A stretch of 64,000 bases of DNA from Mimachlamys varia. Lineage: Eukaryota; Mollusca; Bivalvia; Pectinida; Pectinidae. The notes under the pieces were generated by a model. It had not been told where the DNA came from. It made no database searches and saw only the letters and a program-made list of their open reading frames with translations. The stretch is from positions 6,706,001-6,770,000 of the forward strand of contig OX392534.1 in NCBI GenBank assembly GCA_947623455.1, written 5' to 3'. Position numbers and translations under genes: made by a program. This document shows positions 20,967 to 62,100 of this stretch, piece by piece. Numbering within the stretch: the first letter of the stretch is position 1; each line of letters starts with the position of its first letter.

Positions 20967-21465
20967 CATCGTTTGACATCTCTCCAATTTTCAAAGGGCA
21001 CAAAAGTTTTGTAGAAAATACTGTATATAAACAAACACTATGAAAGTTGAAAAATACTCTGTGCTTTCTAAATAATGGAAATGAAATAATGATTTGCACT
21101 AAAGGTATGTTTGGAAAAAGGTTATATGCAGCATAAAGGGAGTTAAAGGCATATGAGGCAATTTAACTTGCTCCTTTTAGTCCAAGTTAACTACATTCCA
21201 TAAATAGATAGATAGGATAGATTAACAAATTCAAATTTTGCACTAAATTTTATTTAAGTTTAACGTGTGAAATTTTATGCATACAATTTTGATAAGATGT
21301 GAATGTTAAAATTTTATTTTTAGAAATGGTTTGATAACAAGTCATGTAAATGAAACATTTTTATTTTTAGAAAAGTTGTACTTGTCATTACCTAGTATAC
21401 TAACAGAACTTAATACAGTGATTAATTCCTTCTTCTCTGGAATCAAGGTTTTGAGATGTTCCCTG

Positions 21466-22935
21466 TCGTAGGATATATATACCTGTTAGGCCTGTTGTAG
21501 GATATATATACCTGTTCGGCCTGTCGTAGGATATATATACCTGTTATGCCTGTCGTAGGATATATATACCTGTTAGGCCTGTCGTAGGATAAATATACCT
21601 GTTAGGCCTGTCGTAGGATATATATACCTGTTAGGCATGTCGTAGGAAATATATACCTGTTAGGCCTGTCGTAGGATATATATACCTGTACGGCCTGTAG
21701 CAGGATATATATACCTGTACGGCCTGTCATAGGATATATATACCTGTTAAGCCTGTCGTACGATATATATACCTGTAAGGCCAGTCGTAGGATATATATA
21801 CCTGTTAGGCATGTCATAGGATATATATACCTGGTAGGCCTGTCGTAGGATATATATACCTGTTAGGCCTGTCGTAGGATGTATATACCTGTTAGGCATG
21901 TCGTAGGATATATATACCTGTTAGGCCTGTCGTAGGATATATATACCTGTTAGGCCTGTCGTAGGATATATATACCTGTTAGGCCTGTCGTAGGATATAT
22001 ATACCTGTACGGCCTGTCGTAGGATATATATACCTGTTAGGCCTGACGTAGGATATATTTACCTGTTAGGCCTGACGTAGGATATATTTACCTGTTAGGC
22101 CTGTCGTAGGATATATATACCTGTTAGGCCTGTCGTTAAGGATATATATACCTGTTAGGCCTGTCGTACCTGTTAGGCCTGTCGTAGGATATATATACCT
22201 GTTAAGCCTGTAGTTGGATATATATACCTATTAGGCCTGTCGTAGGATATATATACCTGTTAGGCCTGTCGTAGGATATATATACCTGTTAGGCCTGTCG
22301 TAGGATATATGTACCTGTTAGGCCTGTTGTAGGATGTATATACCTGTTAGGCCTGTCGTAGGAAATATATACCTGTTAGGCCTGTCGTAGGATATATATA
22401 CCTGTACGGCCTGTAGTAGGATATATATACCTGTACGGCCTGTCGTAGGATATATATACCTGTACGGCCTGTCGTAGGATATATATACCTGTTAGGCGAG
22501 TCGTAGGATATATATACCTGTTAGGCCTGTCGTAGGAAATATGTACCTGTTAGGCCAGTCGTAGGATATATAGATCTGTTAAGCCTGTCGTACGATATAT
22601 ATACCTGTTAGGCCTGTCGTAGGATATATATACCTGTTAGGCCAGTCGTAGGATATATGTACCTGTTAGGCCTATTGTAGGATATATATACCTGTTAGGC
22701 ATGTCGTAGGATATATATACCTGGTAGGCCTGTCGTAGGATATATATACCTGGTAGGCCTGTCATAGGATATATATACATGTTAAGCCTGTCGTACGATA
22801 TATATACCTGTTAGGCCAGTCGTAGGATATATATACCTGTTAGGCATGTCATAGGATATATATACCTGGTAGGCCTGTCGTAGGATATATATACCTGTTA
22901 GGCCTGTCGTAGGATATATATACCTGTTAGGCATG
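21466..22935. repeat. 29-bp minisatellite, about 50 copies
   Basis: Unit CCTGTCGTAGGATATATATA plus CCTGTTAGG. Variants (TACGG, AAGCC, GTATATAC) recur in blocks, as expected from unequal exchange. It starts about 500 bp downstream of the NEK stop codon. Confidence 0.9.
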
Positions 22936-32969: not shown

Positions 32970-33135
32970 AGTCAGCTTTAAGCTTTAAACCCCACCTTTT
33001 TGCCCCTAACATCACTGAGGAGTCTTAGGAGGACGAAACAGCTGTATGATGCAGTTTAATTTATTTTTTTTTCGGCATACCGTATCTATTACTAAATTTA
33101 AAAGATGTAGCATATGTGTGTGTTACGTCATCTTT
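32970..33135 (+). mobile_element. Hammerhead-bearing dispersed repeat, copy lacking the far 5' part
   Basis: It begins near CCCCACCTTTTTGCCCCTA, contains the intact ribozyme at 33010-33051, and ends with the shared CGGCATACCGTATCTATTAC, AAATTTAAAAGATG and GTGTGTGTTACGTCATCTTT. It lies about 700 bp upstream of the NEK gene that starts at 33849. Confidence 0.7.
33010..33051 (+). ncRNA. Hammerhead ribozyme, type I, second intact copy
   Basis: Stem I CATCA (33010-33014) pairs perfectly with TGATG (33047-33051). The core is CTGAGGA (33015-33021), stem II GTCT/GGAC with a TAGGA loop, GAAA at 33035-33038, then C-AGCT-G and cleavage triplet GTA ending at 33046. Position 7 of the core is G where the copy at 46479-46522 has C; that position is free in known hammerheads. 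Stem I has changed on both strands relative to the other copy (CATCA/TGATG against AATCA/TGGTT) while staying paired. Confidence 0.8.
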
Positions 33136-33848
33136 AAGTAGTAAGAAACTAAGCTGTATAAGGTCTTTCATTTCCTTGTATAATATTGTAATAACTTTAA
33201 TTACAATGCGAATTGCATTAATGGCCGTCATTGCATCATAACCCCCTACTGCCAACCCGGTACAATTACACGAAGCAATCAATACACAATACCCCCTGCT
33301 GCGTATGTAAACTATGTACTGTTCTTTTTAAACTGTTGACAGGTAGATCACGGCGGTATTGATTTCTACATTCATTTACAGTAAACGTGTGATAGGTGAT
33401 ATTATCATGTGAATTTTCCTACTAGTTCCTTTTCTGACGAATATAAATCGTGATAAATTTGCCTTTGTGCCAACACTATTTTTAAACAATTAAAATATAT
33501 ATACGATTTATAAGTACACACTACTGCGTCGATACACACAAAGGACACCAAATCACCCTGAGTGTAGACCACTATACCGGTACCCTGTATACACTCTTGC
33601 ACGGTTGAACGATCCAGGAAGTTAGAAACCAAAGGTTAGACAAACCAATGGGAAGTTTCGTCAACAACTACATGCTTCTACGTGCGCATTTTCTGGTAGT
33701 CTGCCAGTGCGAGTTGGAAAACCTGTGTAGATTGCTTGTAAACATTTCATTTTCAGCCATTAAGAAGTCGTTTATGGAGCAAATTGTTTAGTTCCAAACG
33801 TAGACATAATATGTAATCTATTGAAGATATATCAACAGAAATACGACA

Positions 33849-36800
33849 ATGGCAGGTTTAGCTGCTAGGAAGAAGACGTTTGGGGATTATGTGGAGATCG
33901 AACAGCTTGGGAAAGGAACATTTGGACAAGTGTATCTCGTCAAAAAGGCGGATGAGAAGGGCAAGGACGAGTCTCGAACACAGGTATGTGGATATTTACC
34001 GGTTCACCGTCTACATAACTGTATTAACTACAGCTATCTTAGTAAGGCCTTTGTTATATACCTGTGTAAACATTGATAACTGAAGATATAAGCACACAAC
34101 GGTAATGTTTCGATTTAAAGATATATAGATTACCAGGTGTATTGAAACCGAAACTCATTCAAGTCATTGTGAAGGTTTATGATGATAAGAAACCAAACAA
34201 ATGATAAAGAGTTTCTTTCTGCCTCTTTAGCACTTAAACTCATTAGATGTTTATTATGGAAACTACGTATTTGACAGGGCATATGTGTTGTTGTCCTGTG
34301 AATATCAGAAGAGGGGAAAGCGCTAGAGAGGCACTAGGAAACTCTTGTCATTTGTTTTAGATTTACAATTTTTATTTTAAAGAGAACAAAAGTCAGAATA
34401 CCGAAGCATAATCAAACCCACAGACAAAACATGAAGAAAGGGAAAAAGTACACGATGGCCTTCGAAAAAGCGAGAAAATATTGATAATATAAAACATGAG
34501 TAATGTTGCAGCTTTGATGAGCGTTATTTAACACGCCGTTAAAAGCTACTTCAGTTGTCCAAATAGATAATCATTTGTATCCTCGCTGGACTTTAAGATT
34601 ATTTATTATCTGTACTTAGTGTATATGACCATGATACGGACACACTTGTCTTATTAAAAATCCCTTTCTTGATAGTAACAACCCTATTTTTCCAACATAT
34701 GGTTTTTATATGTCCAGCCCATTCGTTTTTCTAGGGCTTGTTCTTAATATCGAGATTGTTGTGATAGATATCGACTTCCAACTAATAGGTTGATGATAGT
34801 TATAACCTAGTTTCATGGTCGCAATCTTGGTATCATTCAAAAATATTATGTATCCTTGTATGTGGACGGTATCGAATATGTTCATTAGTTCGCCTACGTC
34901 GCCTTGTTGTGATTCAGAGAGACATTTACTTCGATGTGACCTAAATTTACATGGTTGGTGTCGTCGATCTTACCAGAACAGCTGATCGTATTCTCTTATT
35001 ATGTTTTCAAGGGTCTCCATGTATCTTTCCTTTGTCCTTTTTTGCCCCATCCCCGTTATCCAGGGGTTATGATCACCTACGCTTTCTACACCCCTGGAAT
35101 ACGTCATGGTGAAACTGAAGGCTCGCTTAGATAAAAATAACCTAATCAATTCATAGGCTGCATGCTTGTCCATTGAAGATTACAAAGAAACCGCAACCGA
35201 TTTCAAAGCCTGTCAATTTATACCGTTATGTGACGACAAGATTCTTTTGATGTACATCAAATGGTCGAACCAGTCTCCTTGCCTCATCAACAAGGTGGCA
35301 CACATATAACTTTCAGTTTTGCCAAGACTTATTCCAGGGGCGAGAGAGCGTAAACGATCTAACCCCTGGATATCGAGGGTGATTTTGTCCCTGGTTGAAT
35401 CGAACCGGTACATCACCGGTGCAGAAAATGTTTTATTCGGGTTTGTTATAATGAAAGAAGAAGCTTTTTACTCAAAAATGTATTCCCCGACTGAATTGAT
35501 ACTTGATAACGAAGTAAAAAAATCTAGTTACTAATTACTAAATAACGCTAGTGAAAATCCATCATTTTAAAACAACACCATCCACAAACATATTATATGG
35601 TTTTATAAAGGTAAAACGGGTTTGTGTTTACAACAATGGTTTGTTTTTAACTAGAAATACGCCTTAAAGAAGATACCTTTCCCCGATGCAAACCGTAAAC
35701 GAGAAGAACAGCTGGTCGATCGTGAGGAGGATATCCTGAAGAAAGTGAAGCACCGTCACCTGGTACGTTATGTGGACTCGTTCAGGGACAAAGACACTAT
35801 GTATATGGTAATGGAATACTGCGACGGTGGAACACTGCATTCATACATCCGTGAACTGAACGAAGGAATGCCGGAAGATATGTTCCTATGTTTCCTTGAA
35901 CAAATCGCACATGGGCTGAAGGTAAAAAAACAGACTAACAATAATGATACATATATTTATGAAATTAATTGGGAATTGAAATATTTCTAAACTAAAAAAA
36001 AAGAATAATGTTGCTGTATGAAGTATCTTACTATCATTGTTTCGGAACAATTCATGCATGAATGTCACAATTTCAGGTATTATTTCATGTCATAAGAGAG
36101 ACCTTAACTAAAACACATATTTTCAAATTAGTGCATATATCTATGGTTTGATTGTCTTGTGTTGAAATCCGATTTTTTTTAATGATTCTCAAACAATATT
36201 TTCTTACGTCAATGCAGTATCTCCATATGAAGATGACTATAATGCACCGAGATATCAAGACCAAAAATATTCTGATGACCAGAGGCAACGTCCTGAAGAT
36301 ATGCGACTTTGGAATAGCAAAGTAAGTCTCGTGGTTGATATTCATACTCTTATATCTAAAGAGGTACTATTCATTTAGGGAAACAATTCTATATACAAAT
36401 AACGGATACTGGTTCTTTACATCTGAGCCATTTTTCTCGTGCACATGTATAGTATAGGTAATATTCTACTGATTCCCTCCACATCTTTATATATACTAAA
36501 ACATAATATTCCTAATGACAACATATTTAAGATATATAGTCTGTCTACCATTCTATTGCCTATGGTTTCTTGCTTCTATAAACTGCTGTCTCATATTTAC
36601 TTTGTATCAATGAAATTTCGTTTTAATATGTATACCATACCATAAATAAAATGATATATTAAGTATTATATTGACTGCATGCGTTATAGTCAACTAACTT
36701 TTTCTATTTTTGATCACACCAAACAATTATTCAGGTTGAAATGCTATGCTTTAAAAGTAAGAATAAAAGTTATTATTAATTTGTATGTCATAGATTTGCA

Positions 36801-39800
36801 GAAAATGCTGTACCAAACTCAATTTGGATGGGTACCCCGCGTTACATGAGTCCGGAGGTCGTACGAAAGGAACCGTATGCATTTAAGGTAAATACTTCAT
36901 TTTTGTTTTAAATTCAAAATTTTTTTTTTCAATATAAATTATGTATATGTTTAAGTTCATGAAACTGATGGTTGGTAGCAATCAAGCTTTCTTTGATCAA
37001 TATTTTATAATAATAGCGGAAAATCATAGAATACCGAAGGGTCAATAGAAGCTTAACCAGAACTAAAAATGAACAAAGTAGGGGGCAAAATATGAACAAA
37101 AGACTAGGCCCTAAGATCATGAAACAATCTAAAGTCGAAATTTGACTTAAGATTTGACTAAGCCAATCATGATTAATGTTACGAAAAGTAATGTCATACC
37201 TGATTGGCTAAGCAAAAACTTAAGTCTTAAATTGTTTCATGATCTCGGGGATAGGTGTTCGCGAATAATAATCATATTCAGCTTCATTAATGTCATACTC
37301 CATATACATCTAGGTAAAATCCAAGTAAATATCACGTCCGCAAATTGCGAAATGAGGCATCATTCTCAATCACAACAAGAAGGCATACCAATGACCATAC
37401 TCAAAAACGACAACCTCCGGTATTCTCTTATTTATTTTCATACCATACAAGGCTACTGGATATTTCTCAATGAGACCAGGATGGGGGACCACATACTTAA
37501 TCATTGTCTTCATCAACATTCCTCTCTCAAATCGTTTTGTCGTCAGTTTATTTATCAGATGAACTGCGACATATAAACACCAGGTTGGAGAAGCAGGGGT
37601 GTTATTTCAAGAAGGAAAAAGTTCACGATCGGAAAATGTCCATGTTTGTCATTGTTTATGTAGCAATCGATGTAAGCAGCTGACGTAGAAGAATCTGTTG
37701 TCTCTTTGATTTGTTCAGAAGGATACATATGATCGACTAGGTTACCTGTCCTGATAAACTCCTCGACAAATTCGATTTCACATGAAAGCAAAAACAAATC
37801 AGCCAAGAGAGGGGCAACGTTTGTTCTCATTGGGATGCCAATAGTCTGCTGTGAAATCTTTCCTTCAAACTCAACAAACAGATAGAAAACAGGTCTTTTA
37901 TTATGTCATAACCCCACTCCTCACATGTGGTAAATATTTCTTTCACAGACGGATATATGGAGTCTTGGATGTACAGCTTACGAGATGGCGATGTCAAAAT
38001 ACGCATTTTCAGCCGAAAATCTGACTAAGATTTTCAAGGATATCAGTGACAATAAGGTATATTGCTTTTTTTTAACAATAAGGCATAATTATATTAACCA
38101 GCGCTTGATATGCCTATGTTCTGTTTATACTTCGTTTTAATGAATAAGACAAAATAAGATATATACTTTTAATTATTTTTTTCGGCATACTGTATCTTTT
38201 ACTAAATTTAAAATGTGCAGCATAATTATGTGTGTGTTACGTCATGTTCTAAATAAATTTCGATAGCATTTCAGTCGGTGTCAGCTACCACAAAAATTAT
38301 ATTGTGTCGAATTTTTAAGTAAAGTGTATGGTTGCTTTTTTATTCTTCAATACAATGGGTTAGAACGGTTTGCATGCGTAAGTAACAAATTCAATATCAA
38401 TGTTATCTAAAGTGGACAATAATGAACAACAATGCTGTGTGTAGGGAATAATAAGGTTAAGTTGTTTCCGTTGTTTGCAACAACATCGTTCACCGTTGGC
38501 TTTGTTAGATAGATATCCATAAACTTTACGTCACAATCAAGGCAAGTGCCGAACGCGAATATTTGAAACTTTCGGGTTGGTTAATATTTGTTTTGTCATC
38601 TACATAATTATCATAAGATATCAGTCTCGGAAAGTTTAAGTTTTAAAATGAAAATGTAAATAAGGAAAGCTTTCTTTTTTTACAATGCAGTGTTAAATGT
38701 TTTGTTACATCAATAATTCATGATATTCACAGGATATGTATTGTAATATTATTATTATATAATAATACTTTAATAGCTATATGCATATAAAAATATTTGT
38801 TATCGTACTAAAGAACAACTAGGTTAATAATATAACTGTCTTTCATATTTAGGTTCCAGATTTGTCTAGAATTCCTTACTGCGGCGATATCAAAACACTA
38901 ATCAGTAGTATGTTGGAAGTCGCACAAGGAAAAAGACCAAGCGCTAAAGACGTATTGAAGATCATTGCTGATCACGAATGTACACGGCCGGTAACTCCAT
39001 CATCCGGGGTAGCTGCTTCAGTAATGGCGTCTCCAGGATCGAGGACAGATGGTGATGAGGACAGTGAACAGTCAACCCTAGCCAGCGGTACAGACAGTGA
39101 GTATTGACCCCAACATAGAGACGGGCAGCTGTGGTTGTTCATATAACTTTTTATAGTATATTTAGTGTACGGATATCATGATAAGGAGGACAATAACTGT
39201 AACTGCAGGATGAAGAAGGAATTTTATAGTTAAAATGAGGAATATACAAGAGAGAAATCAATATAAAGTTTAACGAAGTAAAAGACGCTTACTCTTTAGG
39301 AACACCTGGTCTTATTCTTTTGTACTTTTTCAAAGGTATCCCTGTAAACGTTCCCTTTTGAAATATTTCATTACGTTATATTGGTTTTGAGTTCGGGTAC
39401 TAGTTTTGTTGATGCGTCGGTATTCTCTGATTAAGTTTACACATAATAACCTTTGGGAGGCGATATGATGTAAACAAGTTTTGCCCAGTATGATTTTCAT
39501 CCTTTACGTTATATATAACATTGTTTCTTACTTTAAAAACTAATTCGAAGGACGAAAACGGAAAAATCAATCTGATTAAAATACAGATCCTCACTATTAC
39601 AAACGTGTAGGATCTGACAGCGACCAGTGGAAGTTCATGTGCAGATGACCTTTGTATTCACCAATCAAATCGCTGCTTACCAGATTCTGAAAGTGAAAAG
39701 CTAATTACGATTTGTTTCGATACTTGTCGTTAAACCAGAGTTAAGTAGCGAGAAACCCGAACGACCGTATACACAAATTGCGGCGCCCAGTTAAGCGGTC

Positions 39801-42800
39801 TCTTCGCCAAGGCGTGTGTTCTTTTTAGACATTATCAGTTTGATTCGTAGTTTTTCGTTTGTCCGAAAAGAAATAACAACTGAAGGTAAAGAAATTATCA
39901 CAAAATATAGTACTAATCAGATTGTTGGAATAATTTTCTCTTCTTCGCCGCCGCCATTTTTGTCCGTCTACCAAACACCGTTTACAAGGTGCATTTTGAT
40001 TGTCTGTTCATTTTCAAGATATGGAAATAATAAATTTCATCTGCACATGCCCTTCTACTGGTCGCTGTCAGATCCTACACACGATAGTAATAGTGAGGTT
40101 CTGTATTTTAATCAGATTGCGGGAAAAAACAGCGTTATACTATATAAAACTACTAAGACGAGTGCACGTGAACTGGTGTGTATTGGGTAGGACAAAGCAG
40201 GTTATAGAGAGGTTGTGATAAGGGTGAAACATGCTTATATGGTGGACGATTAAAAACAAAAGCAGTGTAGCATTAAAAGTTAGGTGATTAGAACTAATTA
40301 CATAACATGCAGTATCTGATATACCTGAGTAGTTAAACAGGGAAATAGAGTTAGCAATGACAACAGTGGTATAACAATTTGGTTGGTTGATTGATTAACA
40401 GCCAGGGTCATTTAAGGACGGCCTCCTGGTGTATGAGATGTGGGTGTGTGTGTTGAGAGCGTGTGTATTTAGGAGGCCGCGGTATATTCTCGTAAGGCTT
40501 CTTGCGATAGTCCTGATCTTTTTTCGATTTCATGTGCTACCACATTGAATCATACTGCCGAAAGCCCCCAACAGAACACCACAGCCGGTCACATTATACT
40601 GACAACGGGCAAACCAGTCGTTCCACTCTTATAATGCTGAGCGTCAATCAGGGAGTAATAACTACCATTGCTAAAGACTCTGGTATGTCTCGGCCTGAGG
40701 ACAGAACCCATAGCCTTCCTCACGGGGACGAACGCTCAACTAAAGTCCAAAAGTGAGGTTGTGCCAAGGGAGACATTAGGAAGGAGAAAGTTGTTTAGAA
40801 AGAATGGAAAAAATAAGATCCCAAGTTTAGTCGCCGTCTACGATCACGCAATGAGGGCAGCAGGACAATTCTCACGCCTACCTTCAGGGCTCTAGCTATA
40901 GATCACACGCGCACACTTTTTACTGTTATATAGTATGTTTAATATAGAAAAAGAACCAAACTTACCGTGCATTAATTGTAAGAAACGATATTCTATCCAC
41001 AGAGTCCTCGCGACAAACATTGGAAGGTACGTATCCTGATTTAACAATTGATCTAGTATATCATGTTTGTTTATAAAAATCATTATGTTTACATAATCAG
41101 ACTGTAATGTGATGACGTTTGGCTTTGAAGTAACAAGCAGTAAAAGATATGTTTTTGCGATTTGCTCTCTAATGCTGCTAATATATTATGATAACATACA
41201 TGCATTTATAATTATAATCACTTTTATACTCGCTAACGTTTTGGATTATTGTAACATGATAAGGATCCCTGTCAACATGCTGTGTATTTCAAATATACGG
41301 TAGCCTCCCTATAACTTATGTTTGAACTTAACTACTGTAAACCAACTCATTTTCGCGGCGAGTTAAATTCGCGTTTTCATACGAAACGACTATTTTATTG
41401 GCGATTAAATTTCGCAATTAATGCGGTCGTTAACCTTATGTGCATTACAGTACAGTACTTCTACAGCTGGCATACCTCTGATTTAAACTATTTCGTGGCG
41501 ATTAATTTTCGCGAATTGTAATCACCCGCAGAATACGCGAAAATTAATAGTACGCGAAAATAAATTGGTTTACAGTAATCTGAGGTTTCTCCGAAACATT
41601 TTTATGAATTATATTTTGGATATTTCGATTTCATTTCTTTTCATAAATTACTTTGCGTTTCTTTTAAGAAAAAAAAATTGGCGAAGCTATAGTCGTTTCG
41701 AAAGTATGCCCCCACTCATCCCAACCACCCAGTTTTTAACACTTATTTTTTTCAATATCACGGGGATCAATGTTGCCCTATGAGCATGACTAACCACTTC
41801 CCTTTCAACCTTTAGCCACCGGCACCACGGATTCCGGATTAGGTGTAAGCTGTGAGTAACATTTGTAATGTATACATTAATTTGAGCATATTAAATGTTA
41901 AATAAAACAGTTATGAACAGGTGATACCTTCATTTTATATGAGTATATTAATTATAGATTCGTTGCTTAAAATGAAGCCACAAACAATATGTTTGTTTTG
42001 CTCAAATTGTATTTCATGAATGTGTTTAAAAAATTTAATGTAGTCTGAATGAGGCATTCAAATTAGAGTTAAAAAGAAATCATATCTTTTTGGGAAAAAA
42101 CAGACTAACTAATAATAACAAATTCATATTTATGATACTAAACTGTAGTATTTATTTGACGAAATACCAAATAATATTATTTTGTACCAACATTTACAAA
42201 ATGACCCTATCATATAACAAACATTATATTGAATTATATCATCAGTTTTACTCTTCATATTTATTGATAGTTTGTATTATAGAAAATCGCAAAAAATATT
42301 ATGTTTACAGCGAAATTAAAGCATTCTTCTACGAGAGCTAAAAGATATTTAGAAAAGGCATCTACCGAGTTCCAGTCGTAAGTACACTTCTTACTGAATA
42401 AGTTTTTTAGGGGGGGGGCTTTAGTTGTCTTAGTTCACATTAAACAGCCATTGTGAGAGCTCTTCGAGCTCTTCTTATGAATGGAGCGTAACCCGGGCAA
42501 TAACAATGACATCTCAGATATTTAAAACTACTGTGTATCGTTTGAGATCCCTGTTTTCAGGGAAACGATTACAAATACAAATATGGCTGTTTTGAGTAAT
42601 TATTTAAAGAATGTATATTTTATTTTGTTACAAATCTTCTTTACAATATCAGTGTTAAAATGCTTCATAGAAAGAATAATCTCAGTTCTAAATGTCTTTC
42701 CTTTTTTTCGTGTTTTGTCCCTAGTTTAATCGATTTTGAGTTCATATTATTGTTTTGTTGACGCTTCGGTACTCTATAATTGTTTCGTTGAGGCACACGA

Positions 42801-46389: not shown

Positions 46390-46605
46390 TGCCATATTTT
46401 AGATGACGTAACACACACATGTGCTGCACCTTTTAAATTTAGTAATATATACAGTAGGCCGAAAAAATGAATTTAACTGAACCATACAGCTGTTTCGTCC
46501 TCCTAGGACTCGTCAGTGATTCGTTGGATTAAAAGGTGTGCATCCAATATTTCTAAACTAATGTAGAAGCAGAAGGGTCAGGTGCGTAAAACCCATTTAA
46601 TTTAT
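46390..46605 (-). mobile_element. Hammerhead-bearing dispersed repeat, complete-looking copy (about 200 bp)
   Basis: On the minus strand the unit runs from a GGGTTTTACG-like start through CTGCTTCTACATTAGTTTA, the ribozyme, a T-rich run, CGGCCTACTGTATATATTAC and AAATTTAAAAGGTGCAGCA to GTGTGTGTTACGTCATCT. The same order is found at 57430-57625. Partial copies are at 32970-33135, 38180-38250 and 49470-49550. No open frame is present, so it must depend on machinery encoded elsewhere. Confidence 0.75.
46479..46522 (-). ncRNA. Hammerhead ribozyme, type I, complete core
   Basis: Read on the minus strand, the order is stem I strand GAATCA, core CTGACGA, stem II GTCC-TAGGA-GGAC, core GAAA, a two-pair stem III (A-U, C-G closing AGCT), cleavage triplet GTA, and stem I strand TGGTTC. 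GAATCA pairs with TGGTTC over six pairs, one of them a wobble. Every invariant hammerhead position (CUGANGA, GAAA, NUH) is present. Predicted cleavage is 3' of the A of GTA, at 46485 on the minus strand. Short stem III is typical of hammerheads in Penelope-like elements and animal retrozymes. Confidence 0.85.
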
Positions 46606-47974
46606 GAATTTAGAAGTAAAATTAAACAAGTTCTGTATAATTTATACATTTTAGATATAGTGTAACGTATCATTGTATCAAACATTTTGTTTGTTTCATT
46701 TTTTTTCTATTTCGGTGATTTATGAATGTCAATTTTCTTGCTAACTGTGTCTTTACGGGTCTTACTTACCGCTGTGATATCATTTTTATTGTTAAAGCTG
46801 TCGACAAAGGGAATAAAATCAATTTAATTGTTTATCCCTTTATGCCTTTTTGACTAACGCCTGTCGTCATCTCTGGATTTGATTCCTTAAACAGTTATGT
46901 AACTGTGTGAATTATGTGAGGTCTTTGATGTTTGAAGACTGTTTTTATTTGTGAAAATGTGTGTGCGCGAGGTTGTGTGTTTGTATGAGGAAGGGGGATG
47001 CGTGTGTGTGTGTGTTTTTGACATTTACATAAGATTTTGATTGTAAAGTTACAAATTATAAATGCATGACAAAAAAATCATACTCCGATGCCTTCGATCA
47101 TGTGAAATTTCTTACCAATTTTACAAGCCAGTAAATTGTTTGCAACACTTTGTAAACATTCTAGTCCTTTATAGCTTAACATACAAACATTTGTTTTTAT
47201 TCTTCATCTTTAAAATGTTATCGTTGTTTCATACCGTTTCATACCGTCATTGATATTTGTATGATGTAACCTATGATTTAGTTTTGAAAGATATGCTTAA
47301 CCTTAGGTATACATCCAAGACGGAGTATGTAGATGCTTTGCTTGTAACCCAATCAAGCTGTTTATTGATACAATAAATCATATTGAAAACAAATGAATGC
47401 TGTTTGTATTTATTTTATTGCACACTGCCAGAAAACGTCGGACCCCTGCCCAAGGACACGTTACCGATAGATAGGATAATGAGTGTGTGAGTGAGCAAAA
47501 TAATATTCGAATTTTACTGACATTGACGTCCCGTAAAAAATACAATGTCGGACACAGTTGTAACAATATGAATTGTTTTATTAGAATGCCGAGTTAAAGT
47601 ATTTAACAACAAAATAAATCACCAAAACAATATTTACCAATAGTAAAACAACACAAACTATTAACGACAATCACAGACATGCTTTCAAAATAACAGGAAA
47701 GTATAACAGCAATGCCGTGAAAAATACCTCGTGTTACAGTTATCACAAGTTGTGTATACTTACAATGAACATAAAAATAACATATCGGTTTTCATGAATG
47801 ATATCACTTCTACCATTCATGGCAAATGTACACTTATAATAATCTTTAAAAAATGAATCAATTTTTATAGTATGATAGATAATATAACATCTGATAAATA
47901 TTCACAGACATTTAAAGAAGAGCCATTTTCCTTTCATGCAAACGTTTTGAAAACGTGTTTTAACTTTATTCGAT

Positions 47975-49469: not shown

Positions 49470-49550
49470 GACTAATTCATTTTTGACATACTGTATCTAT
49501 TACCAAATTTAAAAGGTGAAGCATATGTGTGTTACGTCATCTGTTATATG
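49470..49550 (+). mobile_element. Hammerhead repeat family, 3' fragment
   Basis: TTTTTGACATACTGTATCTA, TTACCAAATTTAAAAGGTG and CATATGTGTGTTACGTCATC match the 3' part of the family. No ribozyme core is present upstream. Confidence 0.6.
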
Positions 49551-50115: not shown

Positions 50116-53100
50116 TATCGGTGGAACCAGTATGGGAGGATTCAGCGTTTTCCTTCGCCTCCTTAAGGGCATCCAGCGCCTGTTCGGTTCCCTGTAGGGC
50201 CATACAAAGTGATCGGACGGTATCCATTTCACAACTTGGGATGCTTCTTTTATATTTTGTCTGTAATTCAGTGAACAATGGTTGCAGATATTGAGAACAA
50301 GATGTTACATCTCGTTGATATACCTGTCAAGTATGAACTGGTGTAAATAACTATCATGCATTACCGTTAAAGATTCGAGAACTTAATGCTCGAAACAAAA
50401 CGTTTCAAATTATATCTAATGATATTTAAATTGTTATCATATACAAGTTCACACTGACTAGAACATCAATCACTTTTCGTAAATCGATGGATCCTTAGCA
50501 ACCTGACTACAAGTATCTGGGGATAGCTACACGTTTTTCCTTACATAAAACAGAACCGGAACAGTTCATAATGTTAAATGAAACATGGATCTCCGCAAAT
50601 CACCTTACATATTGTAGAACCTCTAAGCAAACCACATACAGGTCCAAGGTCATCCTCAGGACCCCCGGTAACCAGATTAACTAAGACAGCGCGCACGTAC
50701 AGGAACAGGACTCCCTCAGTTGTACCCCAGATACAGAACGGATACTGGAACGCCTCCCAATGACAAAAAATACTTGGGTTTCCACAGTTCATATGTTACC
50801 CGATATAACCTACAGGGCTGACACCAACAATTATAACCAAACCCACTCCGTCAGATAATAGAGCCTTGACCACTTACACTGGGTAGAATGGCGTCTACTA
50901 CGTTTCCTCCACATATAACAGAACCCGAATGTTTACAGAACATAAATTTCGGGGTTTTTTACATAAGTATTCAAATTGTGATTTTCTAACGATTCGTTCC
51001 AACCCTTTGAAATTTCTTTGAAAACTTGATATATAGCTGTGCAGTAATCAATAAAGATTATACATACCAGTATGTCTTTCTGCGGCATCCCCTCCCGGAA
51101 GTTTTTCTTCATGTTTGCCACAATATCGACAGCTTTAGGACTGTTTAGCTTCATGACAAGGAGTCTAGAGAAAATATATGAATACTTATATAGAGTAGAG
51201 TCATCAGCCAGAGACATACCATACTTCAGAGTCAGCTCGGAGAAACAAAATATATAAAACACAAAACATTGTCAAAACAAGACAGCATCACCCGAAAAGT
51301 GCACATAGATAGGGAAAATAAAATAAGTTTAAGGAGTTACACTAAAACTGTAATATTCCCTTGTCATACTTAATGATGGATTAACACTAATCCTGTAGCT
51401 ATATCGTCATACTTAAGGATGGATTAACACTAATCATGTAGCTATATCGTCATAGGTAATGATGGATTAACACTAATCATGTAGCTATATCGTCATACTT
51501 AATGATGGATTAACACTAATCCTGTAGCTATATCGTCATACTTAATGATGGATTAACACTAATCCTGTAGCTATATTGTCATACTTAATGATGGATTAAC
51601 ACTAATCCTGTAGCTATATCGTCATACTTAATAATGGATTAACACTTACCTGTAGCTATATCGTCATACTTAATGATGGATTAACACTAATCCTGTAGCT
51701 ATATTGTCATACTTAATGATGGATTAACACTAATCATGTAGCTATATCGTCATACTTAACGATGGATTAACACTTACCTGTAGCTATATCGTCATACTTA
51801 ATGATGGATTAACACTAATCCTGTAGCTATATTGTCATACTTAATGATGGATTAACACTAATCCTGTAGCTATATCGTCATACTTAATGATGGATTAACA
51901 CTAATCCTGTAGCTATATCGTCATACTTAAGGATGGATTAACGCTAATCCTGTAGCTATATCGTCATACGTAATGATGGATTAACACTAATCCTGTAGCT
52001 ATATCGTCATAGGTAATGATGGATTAACACTAATCATGTAGCTATATCGTCATAGGTAATGATGGATTAACACTAATCCTGTAGCTATATTGTCATACTT
52101 AAGGATGGATTAACGCTAATCCTGTAGCTATATTGTCATACTTAATGATGTATTAACACTAATCCTGTAGCTATATCGTCATACGTAATGATGGATTAAC
52201 ACTAATCCTCTAGCTATATTGTCATACTTAAGGATGGATTAACGCTAATCCTGTAGCTATATTGTCATACTTAATGATGGATTAACACTAATCCTGTAGC
52301 TAAATCGCCATACTTAATGATGGATTAACGCTAATCATGTAGCTATATTGTCATACTTAACGATGGATTAACACTAATCATGTAGCTATATCGTCATAGG
52401 TAATGATGGATTAACACTAATCCTGTAGCTATATTGTCATACTTAATGATGGATTAACACTAATCATGTAGCTATATCGTCATAGGTAATGATGGATTAA
52501 CACTAATCCTGTAGCTATATTGTCATACTTAATGATGGATTAACACTAATCCTGTAGCTATATCGTCATACTTAATGATGGATTAACACTAATCCTCTAG
52601 CTATATCGTCATACTTAATGGTGGATTAACACTAATCCTGTAGCTATATCGTCATACTTAATGATGGATTAACACTAATCCTGTAGCTATATTGTCATAC
52701 TTAATGATGGATTAACACTAATCCTGTAGCTATATTGTCATACTTAATAATGGATTAACACTAATCCTGTAGCTATATTGTCATACTTAAGGATGGTTTA
52801 ACACTAATCCTGTAGCTATATTGTCATACTTAATGATGGATTAACACTAATCCTGTAGCTATATTGTCATACTTAACGATGGATTAACACTAATCCTGTA
52901 GCTATATTGTCATACTTAACGATGGATTAACGCTAATCCTGTAGCTGTATCGTCATACTCAACGATGGTTTAACGCTAATCCTGTAGCTATATCGTCATA
53001 CTTAATGATGGATTAACGCTAATCCTGTAGCTAAATCGTCATACTTAACGATGGATTAACACTAATCCTCTAGCTATATTGTCATACTTAATGATGGATT

Positions 53101-56100
53101 AACGCTAATCCTGTAGCTATATCGTCATATTTAACGATGGATTAACACTAATCCTCTAGCTATATTGTCATACTTAATGATGGATTAACACTAATCCTGT
53201 AGCTATATCGTCATGCTTAAAGATGGATTAACGCTAATCCTGTAGCTATATTGTCATACTTAACGATGGTTTAACGCTAATCCTGTAGCTATATCGTCAT
53301 ACTTAATGATGGATTAACGCTAATCCTGTAGCTAAATCGTCATACTTAACGATGGATTAACACTAATCCTCTAGCTATATTGTCATACTTAATGATGGAT
53401 TAACGCTAATCCTGTAGCTATATCGTCATACTTAACGATGGATTAACACTAATCCTCTAGCTATATTGTCATACTTAATGATGGATTAACGCTAATCCTG
53501 TAGCTATATCGTCATACTTAACGATGGATTAACACTAATCCTCTAGCTATATTGTCATACTTAACGATGGATTAACACTAATCCTGTAGCTATATTGTCA
53601 TACTTAATGATGGATTAACACTAATCCTCTAGCTATATTGTCATACTTAATGATGGATTATCGCTAATCCTGTAGCTAAATCGTCATACTTAATGATGGA
53701 TTAACACTAATCCTGTAGCTATATTGTCATACTTAATGATGGATTAACACTAATCCTCTAGCTATATTGTCATACTTAATGATGGATTAACACTAATCCT
53801 GTAGCTATATTGTCATACTTAAGGATGGTTTAACACTAATCCTGTAGCTATATCGTCATACGTAATGATGGATTAACACTAATCCTCTAGCTATATTGTC
53901 ATACTTAATGATGGTCTAACACTAATCCTGTAGATGTATTTACTTACTTTTGGATTTCGGTTGAAGCACTTTCAAGGCAATCTCTAGGCTGCTGAAAAGG
54001 TTCGCTGGTAGATTCTGAAAAAAATGACAAAATGATCCTAACTGATGCGAACACATGATATATTATCATAATCCTAAATCTTAAATCAAGAATGTCTATA
54101 TTTTTAAACTAATAAATAAGATGAGATACTCGTTTATCAATTGAGTGTTATGAATATATTTAAATACATGCAATTGCTCGACCAGTAAATCAATATCAAA
54201 ATATCACTTTCTCATATTAACAGCGGTTTGGTAATTTGTTTATAATTAGTTTTATTCACATCCCTTTCATAAATAAAATCTGATACCAACACAATTGAGC
54301 ATAAATGAATAAGAGATAGAAACAAGTGATAACGTTTTATATTGGTTATATCGGTTAGATAATTTGAAAATGTAAAAAACAAAACAATGATAATATTTAT
54401 AAACCTGTGAATATTACTCTTTATTGGATAATTGTCTCTGTCCAGCAAAATCTTACCCTTCCTGGCTGCCTGAAGAAAACAATATTGTGTCGTGCCATTG
54501 TCCTCCTCGTCTATTTTTGGGGGTTCCGCTCCCACGTGCGTTGGTGAGGGCGGAAGTGACGGACCAGTGCATTCATGTCCCAACAGTGTTTTCAGTATCT
54601 GTTTGGCAGATGGTCGTTCATCAGGCTCTTTGTTGAACATTGATTTCATAAGACCCAATATACGACTGCAGTACTGGATTCCATCAAAATTTGGCAGCTA
54701 CAATCACGTATCACACTTATTAAGCAGTGGTTGTTATTTTGTCGTCGAAGTCGACACCATTATTAATAGTTCATCAATACTTTACACTTGAGATGGAAGT
54801 ATGGCGATATTTGTATCATTAAACAATAAGCATGAAACTCCAATATAGGTCAATAAAACAACAAGATGACCCTGAAGATCATTATATTAAATTGCTGAAA
54901 TGGCCAATTATTCTTACTGTTTACTTTTAGATACCAGACCAGCCCGGGTATTAGCGCGCGAGCGAGGGGTCATATTGTGGGGGGAACCGGAGTACTCTGA
55001 GAAAACCCACGTGGTTGGGCAGGTGACCCCATACATTTTCACGTCACTAACAACTTACCCTGTGATTCTTTATATCACTGACCGCCTTTTTTTCTCTATC
55101 GGAGGAAAACGCATAGTGCATTTCCGCCATTTCATAAGCTGTACATCCGAGACTCCAAATGTCAGTCTGAAATAATTAGCGAAAATAAATAGGTTAATTT
55201 GAAACTTACGTTTTAGTAAGTCCGGCCAAGTAATGTAAAACACTATGATTTAATTTATGTTCCGACTAGAATATATGAAAACTTGATGGACATGAGACAA
55301 CTTTAGAAGCTAAAAATGGTGTATTTTTTAACGTAATTTAACTTTATTTATTTGAAATATTTGCATCATTGAACGCTCTTAGTATATTTTGGTGGTACCT
55401 TATGTTTGAATTTATCTTTGGTTTTGCATTCTACATGATATACACTGTAAAAAGAGACATTTTCTAGTAAACCATCGTGTATACAAGGGTTTCTAGTAAA
55501 CCATCGTCTATACCAGGGTTTCTAGTTAACCATCGTCTATACCAAGGTTTCTAGTAAACCATCGTCTATACCAGGGTTTCTAGTAAACCATCGTCTATAC
55601 CAGGGTTTCTAGTAAACCATCGTGTATACCAGGGTTTCTAGTAAACCATCGTGTATACCAGGGTTTCTAGTAAACCATCGTCTATACCAGGATTTCTAGT
55701 AAACCATCGTCTATACCAGGGTTTCTAGTAAACCATCGTTTATACCAGAGTTTCTAGTAAACCATCGTCTATACCAGGGTTTCTAGTAAACCATTGATCA
55801 ACTTTGATCACGGATGTAAAATCGTATCCTATAAAAGGCAGGGAAGGGGGAAATATTTTTAGACAACTGAAGTAAAGGTCAATGGTTAATCTGAAACCAT
55901 ATTTACTACATATCGTACATAGACAGTCTGTCTTCACGTACATTTCACGTTAATATGAAGTTTTTCATTAATTTTTAACTTCGTGTTTTAAATAGACTTA
56001 TTTTTTACATGGATTTATGATGCATTTCACGTGCATTTCAATTGAAGTTCACGTGAAATTATTTGTTAAGTAAATTTTCACATGCCTATTTTTTAACTTA

Positions 56101-59100
56101 TTTCATGTGAAATTCATGTGTGAATTTCAAGTGAAAATGAAAGCATGTGAATTTCACGTGAAACGAAATCATGTGAATTTCACGTGAAAACGAAATCATG
56201 TGAATTTCACGTGAAAACGAAATCATTTGAATTTCACATTAAGAAGCACTGACTGTGTAACAGTAAGTCTCTCGGTAACATACATTTAATACTTTGTGTC
56301 AACACTACTTGATGACGTAAAGACAACACTACTTGATGACGTCACTACCTTCTGTCCGTATTCCTCTTTGTTCAGTACCTCTGGACTCATGTACCGCGGT
56401 GTCCCCATTCTTATCGAGTGCTTTGACGGATCGACGAAGTCGGTTATCCTGCACAACACAAATAACTCGTATTCGTTTATAAACTTTAAACTACAATGAA
56501 ATAAGTCTATATAGTTCAATTCACAAAAATACATGAGTTATGTGCAAAACGCAATTAAAAGGCCGTAAAGTTTGCGTTTTCTCTTTAAAACCCTGTTCAG
56601 TTACAGGAGATAAACACGTCTGTGTTCCTAAAGTTTAAACTTGATCAAACCCATTAAAACAATTTATGTTTTATTCATAAGACATATTATTGAATAAGTT
56701 GATGTAGAGTGGGATAATATTAACGAGGAATACAGTGCTAAATTGGAACAAACATAAATACTGAAACAGCTCATTAGGATAGATTAACTCCACAGAGAAG
56801 TCGAGTGGGGAAAATGAATTGAATGAAGACACCAACACAAACTAACAGTTCTACCAGAATACCCCCTCAGTATCTCAACCGTCTTGTACCACACTCAACT
56901 ACAGGAATACAATTATTACACTAATTCTTTGGCATTCTAACGTGCATCAAAAATATGTCTTCCTCTGTTATCGATAGTTGGAACTCTATTCCATTATATG
57001 TCAGGAGCAATTCTTCCATTAACCCATTTAAATCACATTTGGAACGCAACAACAAGATCACTGTTCACATGGCTCACGATTAGGACAAATGTCCCATTCT
57101 ACCTTATCTACCTGGACTACTAACCTTGATATACCGAAGTCGCTAATCTTAATTATTTGTCCCTCTGTCAGCAAAATATTTTTTGTCTTGATATCCCGAT
57201 GTAGAATCTTTTTGCGGTGAAGGTACTGTAACAATATCAATATTATAGTAACAATATCAAAATGAAGGTAACAATATCAATATCATGGTAACAATATCAA
57301 TATTATAGCAAAAATATCAATATTATAGCAAAAATATCAATATTATAGTAACAATATCATCATTATAGTAACAACATCAATATTATAGAAACAATGTTTA
57401 ACTGATATGCTGTACACACCAACAAATATAGATTAAAGGGGTTTTACGAACCTGACCTTACTGCTTCTACATTAGTTTAAAAAATTTGGATTCCCACCTT
57501 TTGGCCCCTAGCATCACTGAATAGGAGGATGGATGAAACAGGTGTATGATGTAGTTAAATTCATTGTTTCGGCATACTGTATCTATTACTTAATTCAAAA
57601 GGTGCAGCATATGTGTGTGTAATTGATTATTAAAGTATTTTATCAGATTGTGAAACTGTCATTGAAATGTGATATTGTGAATTTGTCTAGGAATATGTAT
57701 AATACTATTTAAAATGTAAAACAAAATCTATAAGATGTTTTCTCCATAATAATAAAAAAGAATAATATTAAGTGCTAAGTAATTTACAGCACTTATTATT
57801 ATCGCCATTTGTTTTGAAACAATAGGTGATTCACGATAAAATGCAGCATGTATTTTCTTACAACAAAGATTTTTTGGTTGGCACCTTCAGTGGCTTCTCG
57901 AACGCTTCAATACACTATCAGTTTTCGTCGTTTTAGCAGGACAATAAGGACCCCAAGCTATACCTGTCTACATTACGTTACTATACAGCATCAGTATTTT
58001 TGTTCTAGCAGGACTAGAAAGACCCCAAGCCATACCTGTCTACATTACGTTACTATATATAACACTTTTGTGACGGATGTTTAGAAAGATGTTTGAATGA
58101 CGAAACAAAAATATCTTTAAAAACATCCTCTTCCGGAACACCTGGTCTTGTTATCTTGTGTTTTAGAAGGGTCCCCGTGTAAATCTTTCTTTTGTTCCTA
58201 TTTTGTCCCTGGTTTAATCGATTTTGATTTTGGATTATGATTTTGTTGATATTCTCTACTATGTTGCTTTTATAAAACCAAGCCATACCTTCAAACCATC
58301 AGCTATCTGTTTGAGAAAGTTGACAAACATGTCCTCTGACATCTTGGACTTGCGGCTCCTGATGTACGTATATAGCGTTCCTCCTGAGCAGTACTGCATT
58401 ATCAGACAAACACGATTGTTCTCTATGAAGGAGTCCTCAAAGCGAACAACGTTTAGATGTTTTACTGATTTCAGAATTTCCTCTTCTCTGCTAACCAATT
58501 CTCGTTCCCGACTCTCTTGTCCTATTGCTAGCTCGACGATTTTTAAGGCGTAAAACTGGATTTAGAAAAAAAAATCATTTTTTTTACTATGATAATGGAA
58601 GAAATTGTAGAAATTAATGAAACTAAGATTTATCAACACATCATGTTGTTTTTTAACTAATTAATATATCTAACTATCCAACACATGGTTTATAAGAATC
58701 AGTCTAATACTGTTAAATTTTATAAATCATTTTGCGACATCTGAGGGACAATAGTACTGAAAGGGGAAATGATTATAACACTTTAACGGAAGGGGTAACA
58801 GTACTGATAGTGGGGGAGTAATATTACTGAACGGGGCGGGGTAATATAACGTATAGGGGAAGGTGGTTATATTACCTAAAGCTGAGGGGTAACAGAACTG
58901 ATAGTGGGGGAGTAATATTACTGAACGGGGCGGGGTTATATAACTTATAGGGGAAGGGGGTTATATTACCTAAAGCTGAGGGGTAACAGTACTCATAGTG
59001 GGGGAGTAATATTACTGAACGGGGCGGGGTAATATAACGTATAGGGGAAGGTGGTTATATTACCTAAAGCTGAGGGGTAACAGTACTCATAGTGGGGGAG

Positions 59101-62100
59101 TAATATTACTGAACGGGGCGGGGTAATATAACGTATAGGGGAAGGTGGTTATATTACCTAAAGCTGAGGGGTAACAGTACTGATAGTGGGGGAGTAATAT
59201 TACTGAACGGGGCGGGGTAATATAACTTATAGGGGAAGGGGGTTATATTACCTAAAGCTGAGGGGTAACAGTACTCATAGTGGGGGAGTAGCAGTACTTA
59301 ACGGGGAGGGGTTATATAACGTATAGGGGAAGGGGGTTATATTACCTAAAGCTGAGGGGTAACAGTACTCATAGTGGGGGAGTAGCAGTACTGAACGGGG
59401 AGGGGTTATATAACGTACAGGGGAAGGGGGTTATATTACCTAAAGCTGAGGGGTAACAGTACTGATAGTGGGGGAGTAGCAGTACTTAACGGGGAGGGGT
59501 TATATAACGTATAGGGGAAGGGGGTTATATTACCTAAAGCTGAGGGGTAACAGTACTCATAGTGGGGGAGTAATATTACTGAACGGGGCGGGGTAATATA
59601 ACGTATAGGGGAAGGGGGTTATACTACCTAAAGCTGAGGGGTAACAGTACTCATAGTGGGGGAGTAATATTACTGAACGGGGCGGGGTAATATAACGTAT
59701 AGGGGAAGGTGGTTATATTACCTAAAGCTGAGGGGTAACAGTACTGATAGTGGGGGAGTAGCAGTACTTAACGGGGAGGGGTTATATAACGTATAGGGGA
59801 AGGGGGTTATATTACCCAAAGCTGAGGGGTAACAGTACTGATAGTGGAGGAGTAATATTACTGAACGGGGAGGGGTTATATAACGTATAGGGGAAGGGGG
59901 TTATATAACCTAAAGCTGAGGGGTAACAGAACTGATAGTGGGGGGGGGGTAGCAGTACTTAACGGGGCGGGGTTATATAACGTATAGGGGAAGGGGGTTA
60001 TATTACCTAAAGCTGAGGGGTAACAGTACTGATAGTGGGGGAGTAGCAGTACTGAACGGGGAGGGGTTATATAACGTATAGGGGAAGGTGGTTATACTTC
60101 CTAAAGCTGAGGGGTAACAGAACTGATAGTGGGGGGGGGGGGGGTAGCAGTACTTAACGGGGCGGGGTTATATAACGTATAGGGGAAGGTGGTTATATTA
60201 CCTAAAGCTGAGGGGTAACAGTACTGATAGTGGGGGAGTAGCAGTACTGAACGGGGAGGGGTTATATTACGTATAGGGGAAGGTGGTTATACTACCTAAA
60301 GCTGAGGGGTAACAGTACTGATAGTGGGGGAGTAGCAGTACTGAACGGGGAGGGGTTATATTACGTATAGGGGAAGGTGGTTATACTACCTAAAGCTGAG
60401 GGGTAACAGTACTGATAGTGGGGGAGTAATATTACTGAACGGGGAGGGGTTATATATCGTATAGGGGAAGGTGGTTATACTACCTAAAGCTGAGGGGTAA
60501 CAGTACTGATAGTGGGGGAGTAGCAGTACTGAACGGGGAGGGGTTATATAACGTATAGGGGAAGGTGGTTATACTACCTAAAGCTGAGGGGTAACAGTAC
60601 TGAGAGTGGGGGAGTAGCAGTACTGAACGGGGAGGGGTTATATAACGTATAGGGGAAGATGGTTATACTACCTAAAGCTGAGGGGTAACAGTACTGATAG
60701 TGGGGGAGTAGCAGTACTGAACGGGGAGGGGTTATATAACGTATAGGGGAAGGTGGTTATACTACCTAAAGCTGAGGGGTAACAGTACTGATAGTGGGGG
60801 AGTAGCAGTACTTAACGGGGAGGGGTTATATAACGTATAGGGGAAGGTGGTTATACTACCTAAAGCTGAGGGGTAACAGTACTGATAGTGGGGGAGTAGC
60901 AGTACTGAACGGGGAGGGGTTATATAACTTATAGGGGAAGGTGGTTATATTACCTAAAGCTGAGGGGTAACAGTACTCATAGTGGGGGAGTAATATTACT
61001 GAACGGGCGGGGTAATATAACTTATAGGGGAAGGGGGTTATATTACCTAAAGCTAAGGGGTATCATTACTGATAGTAGGGGAGTTATATTACTAAACGGG
61101 AGGGGTTATATAACATTATATCTCATTTAATTTTCTATATAAGATATCTTGTTTAATATATAAGATATCTCATATAATATATCTGTTATAACTGAAATAT
61201 AGTTGCTATATAAGATATCTTATATAAATGAGATTTCGTTGCATTAAAAGCCAGAAACTGATTTCTCCCTCGAAAAACTTATTCGGAACATATTAGGCCT
61301 ACACGTCTCGCCTCTGTTATGGCCTCATTTTTTCCCTTTTTTATCAAGTTTTTGCTAAACTATTAACGATGTCCAAATTAATGATTTTATAGTCAAGAGG
61401 GATAGGGGAATCGAGAGTGTCTCGCTCTGTCAGTCTCATAGTATGGTTTATGTTAGGGTGGTTGAGGGGATATATTTTCAAGATTGTAATATTTGTACGT
61501 TTGATAAGTGTCATTTTAATTTGAATGGAATTGAATCTTAAGATGTTCTCGTGTAGTTACAAGCCGTTTCGTTTAAGCGTTTGAACCGATCCCATCCGAC
61601 CATATTTAATAAGGTCTAACCTATTAATATCATGCTACTTTCAGGCGAGCTTTGAAAAAGTCTTGCAAGGTCTGCATAAGCATTTGCCTACAAACGCTAT
61701 ATTTAAAAGCAGACAAATCGAACGTCACTACGTAAACCCTCGAGAGATTCCGGACGGGGAGTTTCATTTCGACATTTTGTTAAAATCTCGTTCCTTTATA
61801 AGATATCTTATATAGTACGAGATTTTGATTATATAAGATATCTTATACAGCTATATGAGATATCTTATATATTATATGATATATCTTATGTAGAAAATTA
61901 AATGAGATATCTAATATACTATATGAGATATCTTATATATTAAATAAGATATTTGATAGAGAATTGAATTTAATTTCAATATGAGATATCTCTTATGCTA
62001 TTAAAAAAATTTGATATATTGTTTCTGAAATACATTATCGACATTGCTCCTTGAATAAATGTTACGTTGGCTTGCCATAGAATGTACTAATTATAACATG

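Follow-up and report, generated by a model that had tools for sequence, protein, structure and literature searches.

A type I hammerhead motif between two kinase genes of Mimachlamys varia and the repeat family that carries it

Does a short hammerhead-like stretch lying between two protein kinase genes of Mimachlamys varia represent a genuine ribozyme, and what kind of element carries it? The window analyzed here is the whole stretch of 64,000 nt (64 kb) from contig OX392534.1, positions 6,706,001 to 6,770,000. An initial annotation, made from the letters of the window, described a complete type I hammerhead within a 200-bp repeat. The hammerhead is very probably part of an animal non-LTR retrozyme, a small non-coding retroelement present here as an old copy truncated at its 5' end; the full unit measures ~340-380 nt and has a single minimal type I hammerhead. 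The unusual part is not the window copy but the 45-bp ribozyme arrays found elsewhere in the genome.

The motif and its setting

The motif lies at 46479..46522 on the minus strand and was read directly, from 46522 to 46479, as GAATCA-CTGACGA-GTCC-TAGGA-GGAC-GAA-ACAGCTGT-A-TGGTTC. All parts named in the initial annotation (CTGACGA, the GTCC/GGAC stem, GAAA, GTA and stem I GAATCA/TGGTTC) were present in hammerhead order. The core is intact and fits CUGANGA..GAAA with an NUH triplet, the cleavable triplet being GTA, and the predicted cut falls between 46485 (A) and 46484 (T). All 12 of 12 stem pairs are standard and form three stems with stem I open: the six pairs claimed for stem I were confirmed, one of them a G-U, stem II has four pairs and a 5-nt loop, and stem III has two pairs with a palindromic AGCT loop. 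One stem I pair is A-T where most relatives have C-G and L036 and L058 have C-T; this single event was given no weight as a compensatory change.

The Rfam model RF00163 (Hammerhead_1) matched the same coordinates along all of its 45 positions (1-45), with an E value of 2.8e-5 when 601 bases were searched and of 0.003 for the 64-kb window against 4227 families. The covariance check proposed earlier thus gave a full-length match, but at 29.7 bits against a gathering score of 34, so that the motif is not listed at the curated threshold. An ungapped scan of the window (≤10 mismatches at 36 fixed positions) returned hammerhead sites at 46480(-) and at 33010(+) alone, and the reversed sequence, used as control, gave none. 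The isolated 44-mer folded in RNAfold at -10.8 kcal/mol with stems I and II formed. Stem III was missing from the minimum-energy folds of this copy (copy A) and of copy C, described below, the core CUG pairing with CAG instead, and both folds were unremarkable against shuffles (z = -1.33 and -0.84, respectively). The motif is of the minimal kind, with a 5-nt stem II loop and a stem I without internal loop; because of the latter, it lacks the contact between loops that stabilizes full hammerheads. The word 'complete' fits the core and the 12 pairs but needs qualifying as to the stem I internal loop, the Rfam cut-off and the host element, which is 5'-truncated. On sequence grounds, 46479-46522(-) is a genuine hammerhead motif for which self-cleavage is predicted.

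The repeat around the motif was found in five copies in the window, as the description of a 200-bp repeat had implied. Copy A spans 243 bp at 46405..46647 (-), delimited by the extent of homology and a flanking direct repeat, and ends 3' with ..TGTGTGTGTTACGTC. The 9-bp sequence ATCTAAAAT stands on both sides, at 46648..46656 (-) on the 5' side and 46396..46404 (-) on the 3' side, and was taken as a target-site duplication. The other four copies were delimited by homology on the plus strand. Copy C (32991..33140) is 5'-truncated ~19 nt before its ribozyme, a second hammerhead motif at 33009..33052 (+) with an intact core (CTGAGGA..GAAA) and 11/12 pairs, as determined by ungapped scan and pair check. 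Copy B (57428..57620) has a broken hammerhead, with core CTGAATA, a 2-nt deletion and stem II lost, and copies D (38167..38249) and E (49473..49547) consist of the 3' tail alone, truncated downstream of the ribozyme.

Placement between two kinase genes was borne out by Pfam matches to PF00069 at 36152-36322 (+) and 57061-57276 (-), with a weaker match at 37934-38137 (+). Three related protein-kinase genes, split into exons, lie at 9978-12766, 33825-38137 and 55125-57276; the first is followed by an ORF (11669-12766) with a repeated DTMRVN motif, and the stretch 55125-55169 repeats, in inverted orientation, part of the kinase exon located at 37.9 kb. Ten ORFs scanned against Pfam gave no family. 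An ORF at 37558-37905(-) (QTIGIPM..APLLADLFL), which we take to resemble a Penelope-type reverse transcriptase, had no Pfam or NCBIfam match, and its best PDB match had E = 0.56. Minisatellites are very frequent in the window (41 overlapping tandem-repeat rows in 64 kb, for example 17058-18494, 21462-22932, 51363-53933 and 58791-61114). A 552-bp stretch at 39568-40119, bounded by ~86-bp inverted repeats in two blocks (90 and 93% complementary), is probably a fold-back or MITE element. Copy A is best read as an ordinary, inert copy that inserted between the two kinase genes.

Copies, ends and units of the repeat family

The genome (975 Mb in 71 contigs, of which nineteen large ones, C1 to C19, measure 39.6 to 65.8 Mb) was sampled in three ways. 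Copy set 1 came from the RF00163 model search, in which 73 of 133848 candidates were scored, 40 matches reported and 30 fetched; as these copies were chosen by the ribozyme, their intact cores prove nothing. Copy set 2 was selected by similarity to the 201-nt window repeat, where 40/40 scored candidates (of 1503) matched and 30 were fetched, including the window copy, and is biased toward copies resembling copy A. For copy set 3, a 63-nt tail pattern was used and the ribozyme ignored; 53 exact places among 100 listed were read, L046 and L100 being one place, and L125 and L126 looking like a duplication.

Among the 40 genome matches reported from the 73 scored candidates, 35 reached the RF00163 cut-off, and none of 14 control genomes was positive. 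The tail pattern occurred at 3284 genome places with ≤3 mismatches and at none in the control. Four copies, including a weak piece of 48 nt, were found in five 10-kb stretches at pre-fixed positions; three of the four carried ribozyme sequence, with one core intact as judged by eye. Extrapolation gave ~78,000 copies per genome (95% interval 21,000 to 200,000), a rough figure from few counts which agrees with the five copies in the 64-kb window. In viral contigs, the ribozyme pattern had no matches.

All 30 similarity-selected copies, including the window copy, hold a hammerhead-like stretch (≤5 mismatches), and 22 of the 29 others keep the strict core. The 53 tail-selected copies contained 42 hammerhead-like stretches (≤14 mismatches), with the strict core in 23/42, or in 18/37 under a stricter pattern. 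Per-site divergence across 28 similarity-selected copies (without L058) was 4.4% in the ribozyme and 4.3 and 4.0% in the flanks. As ribozyme and flanks diverge equally, individual copies decay neutrally, and the ribozyme matters, if at all, in active source copies.

Ends were placed on a scale where 0 is the C of CATCA and the ribozyme cut follows 36. Copy sets 1 and 2 supplied 63 stretches, made up of 60 loci plus three copies from the window, of which 11 were dropped: the overlapping L025-L027 and L030, the arrays L003, L017, L018, L019 and L029, the near-duplicate L010, and L033, which is the window copy. In 46 of the remaining 52, homology ended 3' at +117 to +128; the exceptions were L004, L011, L013, L020, L028 and window copy B. 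The leftmost 5' ends of this set ranged from -4 to -442 once the pair L037 and L038, near-duplicates over their full extent, was set aside. The 5' ends of the tail-selected copies ran from +56 to past the fetched stretch (rightmost first: 56, 50, 47, 44, 44, 35, 34, 27, 25, 15, 14, 8, 4, 2, 2, 1, then upstream): 37 precede the ribozyme, 9 fall within it (0 to 32), 2 lie at 33-37 and 5 are downstream; 19/53 reached the limit of the fetched 200 nt, and 5/53 entered a next unit downstream. A fixed 3' end with a variable 5' end indicates a template copied from a fixed internal start over variable length. The 5' ends were not in excess at the cut site (2 of 53 tail-selected copies in the 5 nt at 33-37 vs. 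1.3 expected), so cleaved linear RNA has left no footprint in the genome. One element copy, L009 642-723 (minus), starts exactly at the predicted cut site.

Tandem units with one hammerhead each, within the range of ~170-400 bp, were found at seven loci, and copy A is a truncated monomer. Ribozyme-to-ribozyme spacings were 340 (L009), 340 (L010), 350 (L012), 380 (L034), 376 (L056), 376 (L061) and 378 (L062). The loci L009 and L010 are 96% similar for most of their length and may represent one duplication. Two spacings at L065 were not counted: one of 294, and one of 377 that separates a lone ribozyme from an adjoining array with another tail. Whole units of 340-380 nt contain no reverse transcriptase ORF, and unit-length RNA folded no better than shuffles (z = -1.08, 0.27 and -1.25 for three units). 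Copies exceeding one unit, with a 5' end at -402 or -442 and a 3' end near +123, need a circular or multimeric RNA. The fixed 3' and scattered 5' ends are indirect evidence that the family spread via an RNA intermediate.

Direct repeats of ≥7 nt were present at the ends of 9/42 copies, the 42 being those of the 52 for which boundaries were set by hand, vs. 4.3% of 1722 mismatched pairs (binomial, 6e-5). Among the 31 tail-selected copies whose 5' end could be seen, 2 had repeats of 9 nt vs. 0.11% in the control, and an earlier test on 21 copies gave one 10-nt match (control maximum 9) and one of 9. Most copies had no clear target-site duplication (33/42 below 7 nt; 29/31 tail-selected below 9 nt). 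At L028 872-1035 (minus), ~four tandem copies of a 3'-tail piece lie 44-46 bp apart. The proposal that the repeat is a non-autonomous, ribozyme-bearing retroelement thus agrees with the fixed 3' and scattered 5' ends, the 9-bp direct repeat, the 340-380-nt dimers and the thousands of copies.

Arrays of 45-bp hammerhead units

Ribozymes in tandem at 45-bp spacing were met at five places among the loci of the RF00163 search. A 36-nt pattern across the unit junction occurred 834 times in the genome (≤3 mismatches; none in the control), and the 100 exact occurrences listed fell, by hand count, in at least 26 places on contigs C1 to C12. Eight arrays were read (L003, L017, L018, L019, L029, L065, L066 and L068), with 19, 11, 8, 20, 16, 8, 23 and 4 units (≤14 mismatches), 109 in total, and the strict core was kept in 89. 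Divergence among units was 2.8% at ten core positions, 5.7% at the other non-loop positions and 15% in the stem II loop; a permutation over all 42 positions gave 0.013, with array units that are not independent. The free core position (N of CUGANGA) was invariant in 74 units of five arrays, which points to recent homogenization, not selection. The nearest relative of a unit lay in its own array for 49 units and in another array for 17, with 43 ties.

Most arrays read belong to a rarer subfamily, distinguished by its tail, which occurs at 10 places (≤3 mismatches). Its ten copies comprise three arrays (L019, L130 and L134), four single-ribozyme copies and three without a ribozyme in the stretch read. 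Among the 42 hammerhead-like stretches of tail-selected common-subfamily copies there was no array (Fisher, 0.002). The rarer-subfamily pattern, built from the tails of array loci, favors kin of those loci. Arrays occur in the common subfamily too (L003 and L068).

Ordinary minisatellite growth may explain the 45-bp arrays. L134 1-456 carries at least seven hammerhead-derived units of 47 bp with the GAAA strand broken in each, from which it follows that an array can grow without an active ribozyme in this minisatellite-rich genome. The same locus argues against array growth at the RNA level by ribozyme and ligase, a candidate that was rejected.

In predicted folds, a composed two-unit RNA formed a double hammerhead with a shared stem III of 8 pairs (-27.8 kcal/mol), and two-unit RNAs from real arrays did so for L017 (7 pairs) and L066 (8 pairs); that of L003 gave no double hammerhead, another pairing being preferred. 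These models raise a tentative, rather unlikely reading in which neighboring units would pair the palindromic ACAGCUGU as a shared stem III of 7-8 pairs to give double hammerheads. A transcript would then be cut every 45 nt, and the array would act as a self-shredding minisatellite that is mobile. If true, hammerhead arrays would yield 45-nt RNAs or minicircles, or serve to trim and terminate transcripts. No work on retrozyme minisatellites or on bivalve hammerhead tandem or satellite repeats was found in one open-licence library of papers, where the sole 'tandem hammerhead' passage concerns bacterial ribozymes. Tandem minimal ribozymes as such are not new, because axolotl Penelope-like elements carry minimal hammerheads in tandem (PMC7229834).

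Origin of the family and comparison with known systems

Four other readings of the locus were weighed. Copy A scores below the Rfam gathering score, as would a chance hammerhead-like sequence with no ribozyme ancestry. Yet both E values were low (2.8e-5 and 0.003), the reversed control gave no hits, a hammerhead-like stretch was held by 30/30 copies found by similarity and the strict core by 22/29, and 35 reported genome matches passed the RF00163 cut-off; with core and stems present family-wide, a chance motif was rejected as barely credible. Domesticated hammerheads have been claimed for a few amniote ribozymes, and the motif lies downstream of the minus-strand kinase gene on the same strand, as a ribozyme processing a host transcript might. 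It stands, however, ~8.6 kb past the last recognized kinase stretch, the motif is scattered across the genome, and ribozyme copies evolve at the rate of their flanks; host-gene function found no support in ribozymes that diverge like their flanks, and we give it next to no credence. Several copies have an imperfect inverted pair, CACCTTTT..AAAAGGTG, near both sides of the ribozyme, which would be the terminal repeats of a MITE-type DNA transposon. Many copies reach well past the left motif with scattered 5' ends, the 3' end lies beyond the right one and dimers exist, so this very improbable reading was rejected on end positions.

It is improbable, though less so than these three, that the repeat derives from an autonomous Penelope-like element, as a degraded fragment (pseudo-LTR), and is not a separate non-autonomous element. 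The ORF at 37558-37905(-), presumably similar to a Penelope-type reverse transcriptase, would suit such an origin, but it is without family match and unlinked to the ribozyme repeat, and the 340-380 nt from ribozyme to ribozyme in dimers leave no room for a reverse transcriptase. The literature assigns the minimal ribozyme type to Penelope-like elements (PMC7761336) and describes Penelope-like insertions that a fixed internal 3' end and 5' truncation would fit (PMC11167929).

For the preferred reading, a non-LTR retrozyme, a cycle can be proposed by analogy with published retrozymes. Multimeric transcripts would be cut by the hammerheads into unit-length RNA and then circularized; cut RNA is predicted to have its 5' end at TGATGCAG, and circular junctions of 340-380 nt are expected. 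Reverse transcriptase would come from another element, most likely a Penelope-like one, to judge from the insertion habits described in PMC11167929. The internal start of reverse transcription would be constant and lie ~80-90 nt beyond the cut (..TTACGTC), where the fixed 3' end is observed. Copying would run over a variable length, sometimes beyond one lap, as the dimers suggest; insertion would follow with a short target-site duplication or none, for which the signal is weak. Against this reading stand the lack of a clear duplication in most copies, the ordinary unit folds, a ribozyme as divergent as its flanks and the missing pile-up of 5' ends. As reported in PMC11167929, hammerhead cleavage was dispensable for in vitro insertion by the Anolis element, so a part for the ribozyme in insertion should be assumed only with caution.

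A tool-free reading was thus able to pick out a genuine ribozyme motif in a truncated element. A large and well-delimited retrozyme family is added, and the way its copies are inserted, truncated on the 5' side, ending on the 3' side at a fixed internal site and sometimes running past one lap, bears on the reverse transcription of such elements. The hammerhead minisatellites offer a natural system in which to study possible cis action of dimeric hammerheads within long arrays, as well as possible movement of whole arrays as units.

The nearest known systems are the animal non-LTR retrozymes, described in Cervera and de la Pena 2020 (PMC7229834) as 170-400-nt units with type I hammerheads (350-390 bp in mussel) that lack most loop 1-loop 2 nucleotides, and whose RNAs are called highly self-paired. 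At the DNA level, the family described here shares the type I hammerhead, the 340-380-nt unit, the tandem dimers, the thousands of copies and the loss of most loop-loop contacts. It differs in that stem I has no internal loop, the unit RNA is not predicted to be more self-paired than shuffles, and arrays exist whose 45-bp unit is the ribozyme itself. The minimal hammerheads of Penelope-like elements and Terminons (PMC7761336, PMC7229834 and PMC11167929) likewise have no loop-loop contact; their stem III is very short, and its palindrome would suit action as a dimer. Penelope-like elements share the tandem copies, the fixed internal 3' end and the 5' truncation, whereas the repeat here carries no reverse transcriptase. 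Dimeric action with a lengthened stem III has been suggested for Penelope-type hammerheads (PMC7761336 and PMC6155905), and the newt hammerhead acts as such a dimer (PMC6155905). The hammerhead satellite DNAs of newt, schistosome and cave cricket, covered in the same review, are likewise repeated genomic hammerheads, but their units measure a few hundred bp, whereas the arrays of M. varia are built of 45-bp units that consist of the ribozyme alone.
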